From Cyclonatronum proteinivorum (GTDB lineage: Bacteria; Bacteroidota; Rhodothermia; Balneolales; Cyclonatronaceae): a stretch of 64,000 nucleotides of DNA. Location of the stretch: positions 2,314,501-2,378,500 of the forward strand of contig NZ_CP027806.1 of assembly GCF_003353065.1 (NCBI RefSeq), given 5' to 3'. The notes under the pieces are model-generated. The model did not search any database, was not told the origin of the DNA, and saw only the letters and a program-made list of their open reading frames with translations. Of the stretch, positions 9,159-24,620 are shown piece by piece (position 1 is the first letter of the stretch; every line of letters starts with the position of its first letter). The position numbers and the translations under genes are program-made.

Positions 9159-9611
9159 CTAATCCCAAATATACCTGTGGTCATATTCAACATTGTATTT
9201 CTTCAGAATTTTCAGGTATTCTTCTTTGAAGGACCTCTTCTTATGATGCTCTTCCTGATTTAAAATATATTTTGATATAACATCTACCTGCTGCGGATTG
9301 ACAGAAAATGCACCATATCCACTTTGCCATGCAAATGATTGACTTGAAACCCCTTTAGTTTTTACCCATTTCGATGAGTTTGCTTTGAGAGCTTGGATTA
9401 GCTTAGACAAAGATAGCTGTTTAGACATCCGGCACAGAATATGAACATGATCATTTGTTCCGCCAATTTTTATTGGAATACAGCCATTTTCCTTGCAAAT
9501 ACCGCCCAAATAAGAATGAAGCTCTTCCCGAATATCATCGGAAATCATTGGGGCTCTGTTCTTTGTGCTAAATACAATGTGAGCATAAAATAAAATCAGC
9601 GATTGACCCAT
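9159..9611 (-). CDS. IS200/IS605-type Y1 transposase, RAYT-like
   Basis: A 150-residue HUH single-strand transposase. Key features are the N-terminal HIVFSTKNR, the HUH motif DHVHIL near residue 55, and the C-terminal helix YILNQEEHH with the candidate nucleophilic tyrosine. The size is right for TnpA of IS200, which cuts and joins single-stranded hairpin ends. No TnpB partner is present. Instead the gene sits alone inside five copies of a palindromic repeat, the arrangement of REP-associated tyrosine transposases, which are usually single-copy domesticated genes. The gene is more AT-rich than its neighbours, which may reflect transfer. An IS200 element of the ordinary kind is the alternative. 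Confidence 0.88.
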   Translation of the reverse strand: MGQSLILFYAHIVFSTKNRAPMISDDIREELHSYLGGICKENGCIPIKIGGTNDHVHILCRMSKQLSLSKLIQALKANSSKWVKTKGVSSQSFAWQSGYGAFSVNPQQVDVISKYILNQEEHHKKRSFKEEYLKILKKYNVEYDHRYIWD

Positions 9612-17911: not shown

Positions 17912-19441
17912 TCAGCTTTGAACGAGGAGGAAAAAACCACCAGTTGTTCTGTGCCGGGAAAACATCCTATTATTACTTCCAAAACCTGTTTGGTTCAATA
18001 CGCGAAATCCTAATCCTACCCGGCTTCTTCCAGAAATGAACCTGTAGCTTATACTCAATTGGTTAGAGATCACTGACTGCTCTAAAAAATTTTGATCTGC
18101 AGCAAATATCTGATCAATAACAATATTGGCATTTTTGAACAACAAGTCATTCTCCAGAGGAACAGAAAAGGAAGGCTGGTATACCAAATGAAGTTGGTCT
18201 CTGATGAGTGAAGCAGACAACAATCCGTCCAAAGCTAATCGTGAATGAAGCTGCTCCGATACCGATACACGGTCATTCATAGTGTATCGTAAAAAATGTA
18301 TTCCGAGTCCGATTTTTTGGCCGTTTTGTGTATTTAAGCGACTCCATTGCAGATTTGTTTCTGTAAACCATGCCTCCGTGTTTACGCCATTCAGTATTGG
18401 ATCAGTTCCTTCCCCCAAAATTACTGATCCCCGAAAACGCAGCTCATGCCTGGTATGAGACTGCAAAAATACGATCGCATTTGAAATAGCAAGATTTTGC
18501 TGTTGCCACAAACCGGCTTGAACAGGATTGCTGATACCCGTAACAGCGTCTTCTTCCAGGTATTCGTAACTTAGAGCAGCTGAAATTAAGAACCGTTCTT
18601 GAGTTCTGACCAGCTGAATTCCTCCCCCCGTTTCAAATGAGCTGTAAGTTCTGCTTGCCGAATTGAAAGATGTTTGACTAAAAGTCCCTATCCCACGCTT
18701 GAGTAAAACAAAAGTGTTTAGCTGGTTAAAAAAACCGATTTCATTTTCCTGTTTTCCTTCTCCCCAAAAAGCGTGAAATGCCGCTTCATTTCGGGGTGAG
18801 AGTTTATAAACAGAGCCCGCAGTAAATCGATAGCGACTATACTGAAACAAAGGCCGCTCTACGTTCTGCCTGGCGCCTTGCTTGACATCATACTCCGCAG
18901 AAAATCCGAAGGTAAACCTGTCATTTAGTAATGGGGAACCCACTGCTCCGCTCAGCCTGACCAGATTATTTGTCCAGTTCCCACCGGTTGTATCTGCCCA
19001 TTGGTAGGGATTAAAAGTAGGCACCGGTGCGCGACCAAAAAACTGAACGCCTTCGCTAATACCTCTGCTCAGATTTACCTTCCCGGATACGTACCATTCG
19101 TTCAGTTGCTGTGTACCCTCTGCATTGAAGGTACCGTAGATCAATCTGTTAGCCTGCTGAATCTGCCTGAAGCTTCCAGCCTCAACACCTGAGCCAATAT
19201 ATATCAGACTTTTTTCGCTTAATCCTGATTGACGGAGACCAGCCGGATTCCGCGCTTCTCTGAAAATTCCGGCCAGGGTATCAGCAGAAGCCTGCGTGAA
19301 AATAATTTTTCGAGCCGGATTCATTTCAATTAGCTGAAACTGAGCCGCAGCAGGTTGTACCATACAAAACATCAACCCCGCAAAAAGCAAAGGAAACAGG
19401 CAGCAAACAAGCTTATTAGGATCTGTATAGGAATACATCAT
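17912..19441 (-). CDS. Outer-membrane beta-barrel protein of the TonB/DUF4876 locus (DUF6850-like)
   Basis: 509 residues with a signal peptide (FPLLFAGLMFCMVQPAAAQ). The mature chain is dominated by short beta strands and turns rich in aromatic and polar residues, consistent with a large barrel. Segments include AEYDVKQGAR, AFHAFWGEG and ISYRFISGRSRVGLGFR. I assign it to a DUF6850-like group mostly by context, since barrels of that kind accompany DUF4876 lipoproteins in Bacteroidota. It is the last gene of a four-gene unit. A long hairpin lies between it and the DUF4876 gene, so it may be expressed at a different level from the rest. Function unknown. Confidence 0.7.
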   Translation of the reverse strand: MMYSYTDPNKLVCCLFPLLFAGLMFCMVQPAAAQFQLIEMNPARKIIFTQASADTLAGIFREARNPAGLRQSGLSEKSLIYIGSGVEAGSFRQIQQANRLIYGTFNAEGTQQLNEWYVSGKVNLSRGISEGVQFFGRAPVPTFNPYQWADTTGGNWTNNLVRLSGAVGSPLLNDRFTFGFSAEYDVKQGARQNVERPLFQYSRYRFTAGSVYKLSPRNEAAFHAFWGEGKQENEIGFFNQLNTFVLLKRGIGTFSQTSFNSASRTYSSFETGGGIQLVRTQERFLISAALSYEYLEEDAVTGISNPVQAGLWQQQNLAISNAIVFLQSHTRHELRFRGSVILGEGTDPILNGVNTEAWFTETNLQWSRLNTQNGQKIGLGIHFLRYTMNDRVSVSEQLHSRLALDGLLSASLIRDQLHLVYQPSFSVPLENDLLFKNANIVIDQIFAADQNFLEQSVISNQLSISYRFISGRSRVGLGFRVLNQTGFGSNNRMFSRHRTTGGFFLLVQS

Positions 19442-19449
19442 AAGGGCGA

Positions 19450-19489
19450 AAAAGCATCAGTTTATGGCAATATGAATTGCCATAAACTG
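19450..19489 (-). terminator. Intercistronic hairpin, possible attenuator
   Basis: A perfect 14-bp inverted repeat: CAGTTTATGGCAAT (19458-19471) pairs with 19476-19489 around a four-base loop. On the minus strand it is followed by ATGCTTTTTCG. It separates the DUF4876 gene from the barrel gene and could terminate part of the transcripts or protect the 3' end. Confidence 0.6.
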
Positions 19490-19512
19490 AAAAGTGAACT
19501 CAAAAATAACTC

Positions 19513-20730
19513 TTAATCAAAGCTGCGGGGCGTAGGTGTAGGAATAATTTCAAAATCTTCACCTGTGTCGCCGGTATTCCGGAGGATACGGCGCCCGTCA
19601 ATAATACGATCTGTTAGCCTTCTTGCACTTTCTGCGGTATAGGTACCGGATGCACTAACAAAACCGGGATTCAGCTGAAGTGGCAAACGCTTAAAATCAC
19701 CGCTTTGTGGATTTTGCAGTGCTTCAAAAGAATCAATCACTAACTCGATGGGCAATTTGACCCTTGGGGGAAATGCCGGGGAAGCGTCAGGTACCGGAAC
19801 AAGCTCAAGGGCATCAAAATCATCAACCCTGAAGATGACAAGTGCCGGACCGAAGACCGGAACGAGCCATGTAAAGCCGCCAGTGAAGTAAATCCGCTCC
19901 ATGTTCAGCACATTCGGGTTATCGATATCACGATCATCATCTCTTTGGTTGTAAGTTTCAAAGTCGGCGTCACCCAGGTTGACGGGGCTGTTAGGATTCA
20001 GATCGGGATTGTCGCGGTGATCTTGTGCCGTTTGGGCTATGATGAAACTTCCTCCGGGCTGAATCGGATGGTCGGTTCCGCTGCCAGGGACACGCCATAC
20101 ACTATTCAGGTACACATGATCCTGATCAAACTGAAAGGGCGTAGGCTGAGTTGTAGGATTGATCTGACCTGCGGGACCAAAGACGTCCGCAATGTACAGG
20201 CCATCCGCAAAAAGGACTTCTGTTGAATTGTTGAAGATCTCGTGAAACTGATCATTGAAGTAATTGCCGCCGGCTGGTGTTTTTGAACCGGTATAATAAA
20301 CTTCTTTAAACACAAAATTGCCAAGTACGGAACCCCGAAGCTGCAGCAAAATCGGATCAACATTACTTTCAATGAGGTTTTCATTGTTCAGAGAAACACT
20401 AAGCGTTATTTCTTCTGCTGTACCTGTCAGGTCAAAAGCCTGATCAGCTGTAAGGCTCAGCTCTGCCCGAATATCATAGCGGCCTGGTATGAGGTTACCG
20501 AAAACAGTAAAACCATTTTCATCCGTGGTTTGCACGGTGGTCTCATTTCTTTCGATACTGGTCAAACTTACTTCTGCATTTTCAGCAAAGGGTTCAGCAT
20601 AGAATTCAGGAAAAGCGACCTGAAATCTTACTTCTATACTGCTTACACCTGAGTTGGTATCACAGGAGGTTACGAAGAAGCCGGCAAAAGCTGCAATAAG
20701 CAGTACCAGACCGGCGGATAGTTTTTTCAT
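19513..20730 (-). CDS. DUF4876 family lipoprotein
   Basis: 405 residues. The signal peptide ends at the lipobox VTSC, so this is a lipoprotein. Residues 30-110 look like a carboxypeptidase-regulatory/CNA-type beta sandwich (TTDENGFTVFGNLIPGRYDI). The following region carries the DUF4876 pattern: FVFKEVYYTGSKTPAG, YFNDQFHEIFNNSTEVLFAD. In Bacteroidota such proteins sit next to TonB-dependent receptors and are thought to be surface or periplasmic partners. The ligand is unknown. The gene starts 27 bases after the receptor stop codon, so the two are almost certainly co-transcribed. Confidence 0.85.
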   Translation of the reverse strand: MKKLSAGLVLLIAAFAGFFVTSCDTNSGVSSIEVRFQVAFPEFYAEPFAENAEVSLTSIERNETTVQTTDENGFTVFGNLIPGRYDIRAELSLTADQAFDLTGTAEEITLSVSLNNENLIESNVDPILLQLRGSVLGNFVFKEVYYTGSKTPAGGNYFNDQFHEIFNNSTEVLFADGLYIADVFGPAGQINPTTQPTPFQFDQDHVYLNSVWRVPGSGTDHPIQPGGSFIIAQTAQDHRDNPDLNPNSPVNLGDADFETYNQRDDDRDIDNPNVLNMERIYFTGGFTWLVPVFGPALVIFRVDDFDALELVPVPDASPAFPPRVKLPIELVIDSFEALQNPQSGDFKRLPLQLNPGFVSASGTYTAESARRLTDRIIDGRRILRNTGDTGEDFEIIPTPTPRSFD

Positions 20731-20757
20731 GGTGGTGTTTTTTTTGGGTTTTACTCT

Positions 20758-23523
20758 TTATGGTCTGATTCTGACAGACAAATCAAAACCAAAGAAGAGT
20801 GGTGGGTTACGTCTGATTAAAGCACCTGTACGTCTGCTTTCAAAAAGCGGGCGGGATGCAAAAAAGTTATTTACAAAGAAAGAAGCTTCAGCTCCGCCCC
20901 TAAAGCTTTTGCTAAGTCTTAGGTTAAAAAGCCAGAGTTGAGGGGGTTGTTCCTCAATCAAAAACGAATCGCTTACAAGCAGCCTGATATCAGCAAATTC
21001 ATCACTGCCCTGCTCATTTTCGGGAATCATGACACGGTCTCCCCCTGCGGTAATGAAACCGACAGCATTGGGGTTGACATTGGTTCGGCGATCACGGTCA
21101 AGCCACACCGTCTGGGCAAGCAATGATATCACCAAACCGAGATCAGGAACATGGTGGATGCTTCTAAGGCTGGTCGAAAGGCGTGTTCTCTCGGTTTGCT
21201 CCCGGCTGTAAATTCCAATGCGGTCAGGTACCGCTGCACCAAAAAGCCTGTTTGTATCAATATTTAAGCCGTCATCGCCAGCTACTGTATTAATCAACGC
21301 TGCATTAAAGCTTAGTGACGAGAGTAGCATGAGGCGTGGATTAAAAAAAGACTCAAACTCCACCCCTCTGTTGTGGATAAATCGTGAATTTTGTGGTGCA
21401 TCAAAGGCCCCTAAGAAAGTTCTTGTTTCAACAGGTTCCGGATTCAGAACAGGGGGAGCACCTTCAGGAAATGAAACTGCTTCAAACCGATCAAAAACAA
21501 CGGGATGAACATCTCTGGTAAATCCAAATGCTCCGGTTGTTTTTTCATCAAAAACGGTAATAGAGAGGTATACTGCGCTACGATCATAAAATAAACCTGT
21601 CTCAAACTTGCGGCTTTGAAAGGAGCGCATTTGAGAATTATCAGGCTCAACAACCGATGTGGTTATGAGAATCAGCCTCTCATCGGGGTCAGTTGCGAAG
21701 TTGCTGAAGTTAACAACGTCAAAAAATCTCGGTCCCGGAAATAGCATGTTTAGCGGTGGAGCCTTAGCGGTAATGCCATATCCGGCCCTCAGGTTTATAC
21801 CATGGAAGAGCTCTGTTCCCGCGTTGATCCGAGGGGCAAGTACGGTTCCGAATCTACCGCGAGTAAGCGATTGAGGGACAACATTGTCATATCTCAGTCC
21901 GGCTTGTAAAGTATAAACACGATCTCCCCAGTATCCTGCCATTCTGTGCTCCGCATAAAATGACATTACATTGAGGGCGGGTATGTCATCAAACGAGCGC
22001 GGACGGTCACCAACTGAAAAGTTTTGACGAGGAGGCCGCAGAACATCGAACTGCCTGCCTTCACCACGGTTAGAATCGTGTTTCCACTCAAATCCGATTA
22101 CGGGAATATGCAGCGTATTTCCAGCCTGAAGTCGATTGGTATATTCCAGCCGCATATAAATATTTAGTGGATTTCCTTCAACTGTGGTTTCATTTCTGTA
22201 ATCTGTTGATCCAAAAGTACCGATGATGGTAGTGTCTGTAAGGGCATCGGAGAGTGGAAATAAGCCTACCCGTGTAATATTTTCAGCAAAGAAACCCCGT
22301 TGCTGTCTCAGGCTAAAATTGGTATCGAGAGAAATTCTGTGGGAGCGGTCTCTTCTGAAAGCATAGCTGTTATTGGTGGCAAATTGAAAAAAACGATCCT
22401 GCGACTCTCTTACCCGCTGACTGACCTCATCTTGCGGATCTCTTCTTCTTTCGTCAAGGAACTGACTCGCCTGAAAACGAAAATTCGTACGTAAAGCGCG
22501 ATTAGCAAACCATGCTCTTGAAATATTGGCCTGACCTGTTACACGGTTAAAAATATCGAGATTTTGTCGTGGGTCAGCTGATGATTGGGTAAGATTTCCG
22601 CTAAAACTGAGGCCTGTACTCGTAATGCCATCTCCTACACCACCACTAAAGCTGGCATCAATAAGGTTTGGATTAAACCTGAACCTCAACTGAGGTGTCA
22701 TTGCACCTGCTCTTGACTGCAGCAGGACGGCCCCTGTTGTGATATCTCCAAATCGCGCTGACGGGATGCCCTGTACCACTTCAAGGGACTCAATTAAGTC
22801 TGGCGGAATTTCCCGCAAGTCAACACCTCTTCCTGCTACAGATGCAAAAGGAGGAAGAGATCCTGGTGCTGCGTTCAGAATAGTAACATCGTCCTGCAAA
22901 TTGGCATTATTTGATATGGGAATACCGTCCATAAAAATCCCCGTACCAAGCGCATTTGCGCGCGCTGCCTCAGCTGTAGTTGGTACCTGTCGTAGCAAGC
23001 TCTGACGCGGCCCTGATAAGGCGGGTGTACCTGACAGTTGCCCCGGAAGCAGCTCAAACAGGTCAGCGAGGCTGGATGCCTGCGTATGTTCAATTGCTTC
23101 CCGACCAATACGCCGAACGGTACCGGGTTGCTCAAGACTGTGTACAGCCGTAGCTGTGACAGATATTTCCTCCATATTTAGAGCGCTAAAAGCCATACGC
23201 AGCTCAAGGACAACATCTTGCTCAGCCCTCGTATCGACCGTCAATTCGATAGGAACCATTCCAAGGTGGGTTACCCTAAGGGTGGTAATACCTGAGGGTA
23301 TCGTTACACAGAACTCTCCTTCCAAATCAGTTGTCGTAAAAATATCATGCTCCGGAAATAAGATTACGGCTGCCGGAAGGGGTTCAGAAGTTGCAAGTTC
23401 CGTTACGATACCGCAAATTCGTGCTTCTGTATAAGTGTCTGTCGATTTGGCATGAAGGGGCGATAATGCGGTCTGAGAGACAAGAAAGAAACAGCTAAAT
23501 ATGAAAACTATTAGCTTTGCCAT
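20758..23523 (-). CDS. TonB-dependent receptor
   Basis: 921 residues. After the signal peptide (LIVFIFSCFFLVSQTALSPLHA) comes a carboxypeptidase-regulatory-like domain (ARICGIVTELATSEPLPAAV to about residue 115). Next is a plug domain with MDGIPISNNA, IESLEVVQGIPSARFGD and TTGAVLLQSRAG, then a long 22-strand-type barrel to the C-terminus (FDLSVRIRP). Such receptors import bound substrates through the outer membrane using TonB-ExbBD energy. The substrate is not readable. I do not see a SusC-type signature or a SusD partner; the partner is DUF4876. It is preceded by a lipoprotein gene and a strong dyad operator candidate, which suggests metal or cofactor uptake, as an inference. Confidence 0.93.
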   Translation of the reverse strand: MAKLIVFIFSCFFLVSQTALSPLHAKSTDTYTEARICGIVTELATSEPLPAAVILFPEHDIFTTTDLEGEFCVTIPSGITTLRVTHLGMVPIELTVDTRAEQDVVLELRMAFSALNMEEISVTATAVHSLEQPGTVRRIGREAIEHTQASSLADLFELLPGQLSGTPALSGPRQSLLRQVPTTAEAARANALGTGIFMDGIPISNNANLQDDVTILNAAPGSLPPFASVAGRGVDLREIPPDLIESLEVVQGIPSARFGDITTGAVLLQSRAGAMTPQLRFRFNPNLIDASFSGGVGDGITSTGLSFSGNLTQSSADPRQNLDIFNRVTGQANISRAWFANRALRTNFRFQASQFLDERRRDPQDEVSQRVRESQDRFFQFATNNSYAFRRDRSHRISLDTNFSLRQQRGFFAENITRVGLFPLSDALTDTTIIGTFGSTDYRNETTVEGNPLNIYMRLEYTNRLQAGNTLHIPVIGFEWKHDSNRGEGRQFDVLRPPRQNFSVGDRPRSFDDIPALNVMSFYAEHRMAGYWGDRVYTLQAGLRYDNVVPQSLTRGRFGTVLAPRINAGTELFHGINLRAGYGITAKAPPLNMLFPGPRFFDVVNFSNFATDPDERLILITTSVVEPDNSQMRSFQSRKFETGLFYDRSAVYLSITVFDEKTTGAFGFTRDVHPVVFDRFEAVSFPEGAPPVLNPEPVETRTFLGAFDAPQNSRFIHNRGVEFESFFNPRLMLLSSLSFNAALINTVAGDDGLNIDTNRLFGAAVPDRIGIYSREQTERTRLSTSLRSIHHVPDLGLVISLLAQTVWLDRDRRTNVNPNAVGFITAGGDRVMIPENEQGSDEFADIRLLVSDSFLIEEQPPQLWLFNLRLSKSFRGGAEASFFVNNFFASRPLFESRRTGALIRRNPPLFFGFDLSVRIRP

Positions 23524-23579
23524 GAAATTGAGCGATCTGATAATACCGGGCGAATAACGTTCAAAATTGAGGGGCTATC

Positions 23580-24494
23580 CTACCAGCCTTTTTCTTCAAA
23601 TACTGCGCGCAGAAATCCCGAGGTATCAAACCGTCCGTATTCATCATACCACGCCTGAGAATGCTCAAGGAAGAAAGCAACATTTTCCTGAGCCCTGTTA
23701 TAAATGTCCTGATCTGCATCGTTTTTCTCATGCCCTCTGGGCACGGCATAAACAAACATGCCGGTTCTGCCGCTAACCACTGGCATCTGCATAAAATCGC
23801 GCTCAACAAACTCTCCTGTTTCAGCCTGGTGTGCAGCGGCGTCCACGAAAAAGTCCACAGCATGTTCCGGATAGCCGTAAAGCAAACCATATCCGCGAAA
23901 GCGGTCAAGGCGCTCTTCATATTCCATAACCTGAACAACTATTGCAGGGTCAGTACCTTCGGCAAAGGCCCAACGCGACCAAAACTCCGGAAAGGCGGCA
24001 AAGGACTGATCAAATGCATCTTGTCTTACAACCCTCATCTGCACGTATCTTTCACCGTCAAAAATATTTCTAAAGGGTGTTAAAATTGTTTTCAGAGGTC
24101 CGCAGGAAATAGCAGCTGCTATATGGTTAATCCGCACAAATTCATCTATAAACTGCAGTGCAGGATGAGCGTCTTCTTCTGTCCCCTCTATTTGCCATCT
24201 GAAACTGACAATGTCGCTCATTGGCTTGAGATCGGATATAAATGTATGAAGCCCGGTATTGCTCAGGCTACTGTAGAGCAGCGAGTCAACATAACCATGG
24301 TCTTCTGCACTTAGTACGTCAAAATTGAAGCACTCATCTGAAACGTTGGTAACTACAGCTTTTTCCTGCACGCTTATAGCTGGAGCTTCATCCTGAATAG
24401 CAGTCTGACCGACAGGTGTACAGGATAGCACGAGTAATAATGATGAAGTGAGCAGTGACAGGAGTATTGCTTTTATGCCGTATATTTTACTCAT
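23580..24494 (-). CDS. Uncharacterised lipoprotein, first gene of the TonB/DUF4876 locus
   Basis: 304 residues. The signal peptide ends in LVLSC, a clear lipobox. The mature protein is mixed alpha/beta, with the segment GYGLLYGYPEHAVDFF followed by RDFMQMPVVSGRTGMFVYAV. I do not recognise a family. Four cysteines follow the lipid-anchor cysteine region only sparsely (DECFNF, ISCGPL), so no haem or Fe-S motif is evident. It is the promoter-proximal gene of the unit and lies 56 bases upstream of the receptor, so it probably acts as the periplasmic or surface partner of that receptor. Confidence 0.75.
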   Translation of the reverse strand: MSKIYGIKAILLSLLTSSLLLVLSCTPVGQTAIQDEAPAISVQEKAVVTNVSDECFNFDVLSAEDHGYVDSLLYSSLSNTGLHTFISDLKPMSDIVSFRWQIEGTEEDAHPALQFIDEFVRINHIAAAISCGPLKTILTPFRNIFDGERYVQMRVVRQDAFDQSFAAFPEFWSRWAFAEGTDPAIVVQVMEYEERLDRFRGYGLLYGYPEHAVDFFVDAAAHQAETGEFVERDFMQMPVVSGRTGMFVYAVPRGHEKNDADQDIYNRAQENVAFFLEHSQAWYDEYGRFDTSGFLRAVFEEKGW

Positions 24495-24554
24495 AGGCTG
24501 AAATCAGGATAGTAACAAACTAATGGTCGATATTTCACAAGCAGTAGGCAGCTG

Positions 24555-24585
24555 TGTTATTGTATTGTCAGCAACAATGATAACA
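24555..24585. promoter_or_regulatory. Imperfect inverted repeat in the same upstream region
   Basis: TGTTAT...ATTGT pairs with ACAAT.ATAACA around CAGCA. It lies between the 23-bp dyad and the lipoprotein gene. It may be a second operator half-complex or a 5'-leader hairpin. Confidence 0.4.
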
Positions 24586-24597
24586 GGTTTGGAATAC

Positions 24598-24620
24598 CAT
24601 TTGCAACTATGTTGCAAATG
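24598..24620. promoter_or_regulatory. Perfect 23-bp dyad, candidate operator of the TonB/DUF4876 locus
   Basis: CATTTGCAAC, spacer TAT, GTTGCAAATG: a perfect 10-3-10 inverted repeat about 104 bases upstream of the lipoprotein start. The shape and length fit a dimeric repressor such as a Fur/Zur-family protein, but the sequence is not the classical Fur box. The assignment is inference. Confidence 0.6.

Follow-up and report, generated by a model that had tools for sequence, protein, structure and literature searches.

Here we describe a four-gene locus on the minus strand of the Cyclonatronum proteinivorum genome, lying in a 64,000-nucleotide stretch of contig NZ_CP027806.1, hereafter the window, whose first letter is position 1. 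The genes follow one another in the same direction, from a lipoprotein through a TonB receptor and a DUF4876 lipoprotein to a DUF6850 barrel, with intergenic gaps of 56, 27 and 71 bases, and a palindrome stands ahead of them:

24598..24620, minus strand: perfect 10-3-10 dyad CATTTGCAACATAGTTGCAAATG, 103 bases ahead of the first-gene ATG
24602-24616, minus strand: 15-bp Fur-superfamily-like core TGCAACATAGTTGCA within the dyad, conserved at orthologous loci
24577..24606, minus strand: candidate promoter TTGCAA-18-TATCAT, its first hexamer TTGCAA inside the dyad; a consensus match only, unenriched against shuffles
23580..24494, minus strand: lipoprotein of an apparently undescribed family, 304 aa, lipobox ...LLLVLSC at C25, motif YGYPxxAVDFF...RDF
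20758..23523, minus strand: TonB-dependent receptor, 921 aa, CarbopepD_reg_2 (PF13715, 45.7 bits) and Plug (PF07715, 41.2 bits)
19513..20730, minus strand: DUF4876 lipoprotein, PF16215 at 95.2 bits against a cut-off of 27.9, related to the solved structure 4q1z
19457..19490, minus strand: terminator-like hairpin (-21.7 kcal/mol, z -7.3) with a stem of 15 bp, in the gap that separates the DUF4876 gene from DUF6850
17912..19441, minus strand: DUF6850 outer-membrane barrel, PF21012, 210 bits

Gene calls and Pfam matches confirm the initial annotation, which had described four genes in one direction behind a perfect 10-3-10 dyad; its statement that DUF4876 proteins lack a defined ligand still holds. 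The locus counts as a DUF4876/DUF6850 TonB locus, as its DUF4876 protein scores above the curated cut-off and adjoins both a TonB receptor and a DUF6850 barrel. The structure model of the DUF4876 protein (pLDDT 49.5) was unusable, and the receptor gave no match to the ZnuD model. The terminator-like hairpin lies inside the apparent operon and, being strong and placed ahead of the barrel gene, may reduce expression of this fourth gene relative to the others. A Rfam scan upstream of the operon found no RNA element. Elsewhere in the window, between 8837 and 10307, five matches to the Acido-Lenti-1 RNA (RF01687) in both orientations surround an IS200-like transposase gene (9159-9611, 150 aa, PF01797 at 98.8 bits), an arrangement reminiscent of a REP-associated transposase flanked by REP-type repeats.

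Perfect 10-3-10 palindromes are rare, two being present in the window against about 0.06 expected (64000/4^10). The full 23-mer ahead of the operon is unique in the genome even when 3 mismatches are allowed, and an upstream alignment of the window with eight relatives keeps TGCAA-N5-TTGCA and little else. Since the outer flanks are not kept at orthologous loci and only the 15-bp core recurs, the 23-mer was rejected as the functional unit and the core is taken as such. Non-conservation at orthologous loci had been named beforehand as a possible refutation, and with the core conserved the reading as a repressed metal system withstood this check. Moreover, the core TGCAAYNNNRTTGCA has 7 copies in the 4.29-Mb genome, against 0 for a reversed control, and across 31 genomes the exact form TGCAACNNNGTTGCA has 60 sites against 3 for controls. 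Per genome, the exact core occurs about 2.4 times in the window's family and about 0.24 times in distantly related members of the phylum, which is what chance alone would give. The palindromic box upstream of the operon fits the 7-1-7 geometry of the Fur family, which is that of Zur boxes (PMC6103462). At the distant family loci L201, L206 and L198, the half-sites read TGCAAA/TTTGCA with the 15-bp length unchanged, as if the specificity of the putative regulator had drifted by one base pair.

The suggestion that the same dyad might stand upstream of other metal genes was followed up, and the box was found at such genes in the same genome and also at a Fur-family regulator gene, where it lies 21 bases before the start and a MerC gene follows. 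It also precedes a COG0523 GTPase (551.4 bits to the zinc chaperone ZigA, NF038288, cut-off 600) and lies between a receptor best matched by ZnuD and a facing MntR-like/ZnuA/ABC operon; this receptor and the AztC-matched binding protein there both fall to zinc models, both below cut-off. Further sites in this genome precede BrnQ, a CHRD protein and an apparent S46 peptidase (read by eye). Among relatives, 57 box sites sorted by script comprise 17 at this same Fur-family regulator gene, 12 at COG0523 genes, 6 at the operon's first lipoprotein, 3 at permeases for amino acids, 4 at genes for receptors, ABC proteins or His-rich lipoproteins, and 15 that the script left unassigned, 6 of which proved to be further regulator genes once reading frames were re-read. 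The box at the regulator's own gene, a pattern of autoregulation, is repeated in about 20 relatives. Second only to the regulator as a co-target comes the ZigA-like COG0523 gene, whose family is known to be tied to Zur in other phyla (PMC2770081). At the box sites examined, no gene could be recognised as a zinc-free ribosomal-protein paralogue. Since the box is common to the regulator gene, COG0523 and other metal genes, the four-gene operon is, by the evidence of its sequence, a member of a small, putatively autoregulated Fur-family regulon of zinc type.

Several other genes accompany the box. It stands upstream of small cytidylyltransferase-like genes at L119:4119-4514 (PF01467 confirmed), L123 and L130, for which we know of no zinc link. 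An FAD/NAD-binding protein adjoins the boxed COG0523 gene at L036:4066-5370 (PF13454), L104, L112 and L129, and in several genomes an ABC-2 type cassette follows the COG0523 or lipoprotein gene (L036:443-2602, with a DUF3526 permease; L203:10474-14035).

The Fur-family regulator is a 147-aa protein encoded away from the operon, at G000:C1:2286098-2286478; the one other Fur-family gene in the genome, also elsewhere, is a canonical Fur. Against the Zur model (cut-off 167) the regulator reaches 41.9 bits, a little less than its 45.9 against a PerR model (cut-off 180). As it falls below the cut-off of every curated Zur model, it is named here Zur-like and not Zur, and the assignment to zinc rests on the content of the regulon and on gene neighbours. 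Its ligand residues do not settle the metal. An EcZur-like cysteine, present in the regulator of the window's genome, was rejected as proof of zinc, being seemingly unconserved among orthologues (the columns are partly trimmed).

The first lipoprotein had been noted as matching no recognised family, and database searches bear this out: even at E=1 no Pfam family was found, no match exists among PDB sequences, and a Foldseek search with its confident AlphaFold model (pLDDT 86.8) returned no solved relative, the best fold match reaching E 0.057 and TM 0.19. Relatives exist in Balneolales, other Bacteroidota, Acidobacteriota, Armatimonadota and one planctomycete; judged by sequence comparison, the lipoprotein is a conserved family spanning several phyla, and it seems to be previously undescribed. 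In 394 genomes of the phylum, the lipoprotein occurs in 18 and DUF4876 in 36; 12 genomes hold both, where independence would give about 1.6. At loci lacking DUF4876, the lipoprotein adjoins COG0523 (L197, L203, L204, L205 and L207), has a ZnuA-like gene nearby (L146, Armatimonadota; PF01297, 90.7 bits) or is the gene after a TonB-type receptor (L148-L151).

The box and the lipoprotein go together. A DUF4876 locus counts here as lipoprotein-bearing when its contig also carries the lipoprotein. The box is present in 12 of 14 such loci, namely 11 detected by script (TGCAA[ACT]NNN[AGT]TTGCA upstream) plus L198, where TGCAAACCGTTTGCA was recognised by reading; L038 and L199 have no box. The corresponding figure for lipoprotein-free DUF4876 loci, whose surroundings differ (PepSY proteins, for example), is 0 of 11. 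Furthermore, in trees of the TonB receptor and of DUF4876 all lipoprotein-bearing rows fall on one side of a branch whose support is moderate (90/85 and 94/93), some rows being long. Two Balneolales genomes (G014 and G020) each hold both kinds of system. The best-known DUF4876 loci, PG1019-1022 of Porphyromonas gingivalis and BT3625-3633 of Bacteroides thetaiotaomicron, combine DUF4876 with TonB and are induced under iron limitation, by 20-214 fold and 38-128 fold (PMC10434189). The trees were built with the fetched lipoprotein-free loci as stand-ins for these sequences themselves; from neighbours such as the PepSY and ABC genes of L208, we infer that the two loci belong to the lipoprotein-free group. 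Given that the known DUF4876 loci are iron-induced, the lipoprotein-bearing ones look like a second branch, of zinc type.

The initial annotation had proposed import or surface binding, possibly of a metal, under a dimeric repressor, a proposal supported by the conservation of the dyad, the shared box and the iron induction of distant DUF4876 loci. As the palindrome is part of a zinc-starvation-type gene set, both in its own genome and in relatives, the operon most likely aids zinc scavenging, which sharpens the earlier, general guess of a metal. We consider it probable that the operon is an outer-membrane uptake system induced by zinc starvation. When zinc is replete, a Zur-like Fur-family dimer would bind its operator, TGCAAC-NNN-GTTGCA, at the promoter and keep the operon off, repression being exerted from a site that overlaps the candidate promoter; when zinc is poor, the dimer would release the operator. 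Capturing or presenting a zinc complex at the cell surface would then be the task of the DUF4876 lipoprotein and of the barrel, transport through the outer membrane that of the TonB receptor, and the first lipoprotein would receive or process the complex before it is taken up over the inner membrane and passed to the ZigA-like GTPase. What the sequences show directly is the content and order of the genes, the conservation of the box, its presence at metal genes and at the regulator gene, and the separate DUF4876 branch; zinc as the metal, the repression and the part played by each protein are proposals built on these.

As for the ligand, an L-type amino-acid permease stands beside the operon at seven of nine Balneolales loci and at L202, which hints at an amino-acid-like ligand. 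The dyad also lies upstream of L-type amino-acid permeases in three genomes and, in the window's genome, of BrnQ; no L-type permease is near the operon there, and the closest homologue in that genome is only 28% identical. That the branch imports zinc on an amino-acid-like ligand, a zincophore bound or processed by the lipoprotein without recognised fold, is a tentative idea, which we hold with more doubt than conviction.

Other explanations can be set against the zinc reading. An iron or heme uptake locus would be the natural expectation from PG1019-1022 and BT3625-3633, which are among the most iron-induced genes, and from a P. gingivalis DUF4876 gene that changes with hemin (PMC10470040). 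However, the lipoprotein-free loci are outside the branch, lack the dyad and keep other neighbours (PepSY), the canonical Fur is a separate protein, and the other targets of the dyad are zinc-type genes, so that iron appears unlikely here. Manganese or another divalent metal, sensed by a Mur-like or broader divalent regulator serving both regulon and operon, is made possible by the one box that has a TonB receptor on one side and, on the other, an operon in which an MntR-like gene leads a ZnuA/TroA-type transporter; yet the best matches of that receptor (ZnuD) and binding protein (AztC) are zinc proteins, albeit below cut-off, and the prominence of ZigA-like COG0523 among the co-targets also speaks for zinc, leaving this alternative with a slim chance.

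Two further readings fare worse. Lipoproteins adjoining a TonB receptor that carries CarbopepD_reg_2 recall the SusCD/RagAB pair and, with it, carbohydrate or peptide import; but the receptor reaches 39 bits where the SusC/RagA model TIGR04056 has a cut-off of 368, the operon has no SusD domain, carbohydrate-active genes are absent among the flanking genes scanned, and the box is one shared with metal genes, all of which makes such a role very improbable. Finally, the dyad could fold as an RNA hairpin and act as such or as a terminator rather than as an operator, although its fold z-score is only -1.3, it has no T-tract, and conservation concerns the 15-bp sequence as such, which stands ahead of several genes unrelated to one another; we give this option hardly any credence.

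In this light, DUF4876 receptor systems would fall into two sets, a group of iron type and a branch of zinc-type appearance. A candidate Zur-like box is named for Balneolales and some other Bacteroidota, with no prior description found in the literature searched, where nothing relevant turned up on the box or on Zur regulons of Bacteroidota that include COG0523. A conserved lipoprotein family without recognised fold joins the few candidates for zinc scavenging at the outer membrane.

The closest known systems share some of these traits. In PG1019-1022 and BT3625-3633, a TonB receptor with a DUF4876 partner is likewise strongly metal-responsive (PMC10434189); they differ in being induced by iron, and their lipoprotein-free stand-ins lie outside the branch and lack the dyad. 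The Xus xenosiderophore system (BT2063-2065), also from Bacteroidota, similarly joins a TonB receptor to a surface lipoprotein for a metal complex, but its partners are DUF4374 and PepSY and its metal is iron. ZepA is a Zur-controlled zinc exoprotein, proposed to hand zinc over to a TonB receptor and sporadic in distant phyla (PMC10957091), and thus resembles the lipoprotein as an exported protein with a TonB receptor and a scattered distribution. However, on reading its sequence against that report, the lipoprotein has neither the H-X2-9-H-F/Y-H zinc motif nor a PEP-CTERM tail, carrying a lipobox instead, and homology with ZepA was rejected. The Zur regulons of Caulobacter crescentus (PMC4176598) and of Neisseria ZnuD share with the present one a Fur-family regulator, a palindromic box before a TonB receptor and a COG0523 co-target, the likeness of the boxes being one of palindromic layout. 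They differ in that their receptor belongs to another family, the regulator here is below the Zur cut-off, and the DUF4876, DUF6850 and lipoprotein partners are additions of the operon described here.
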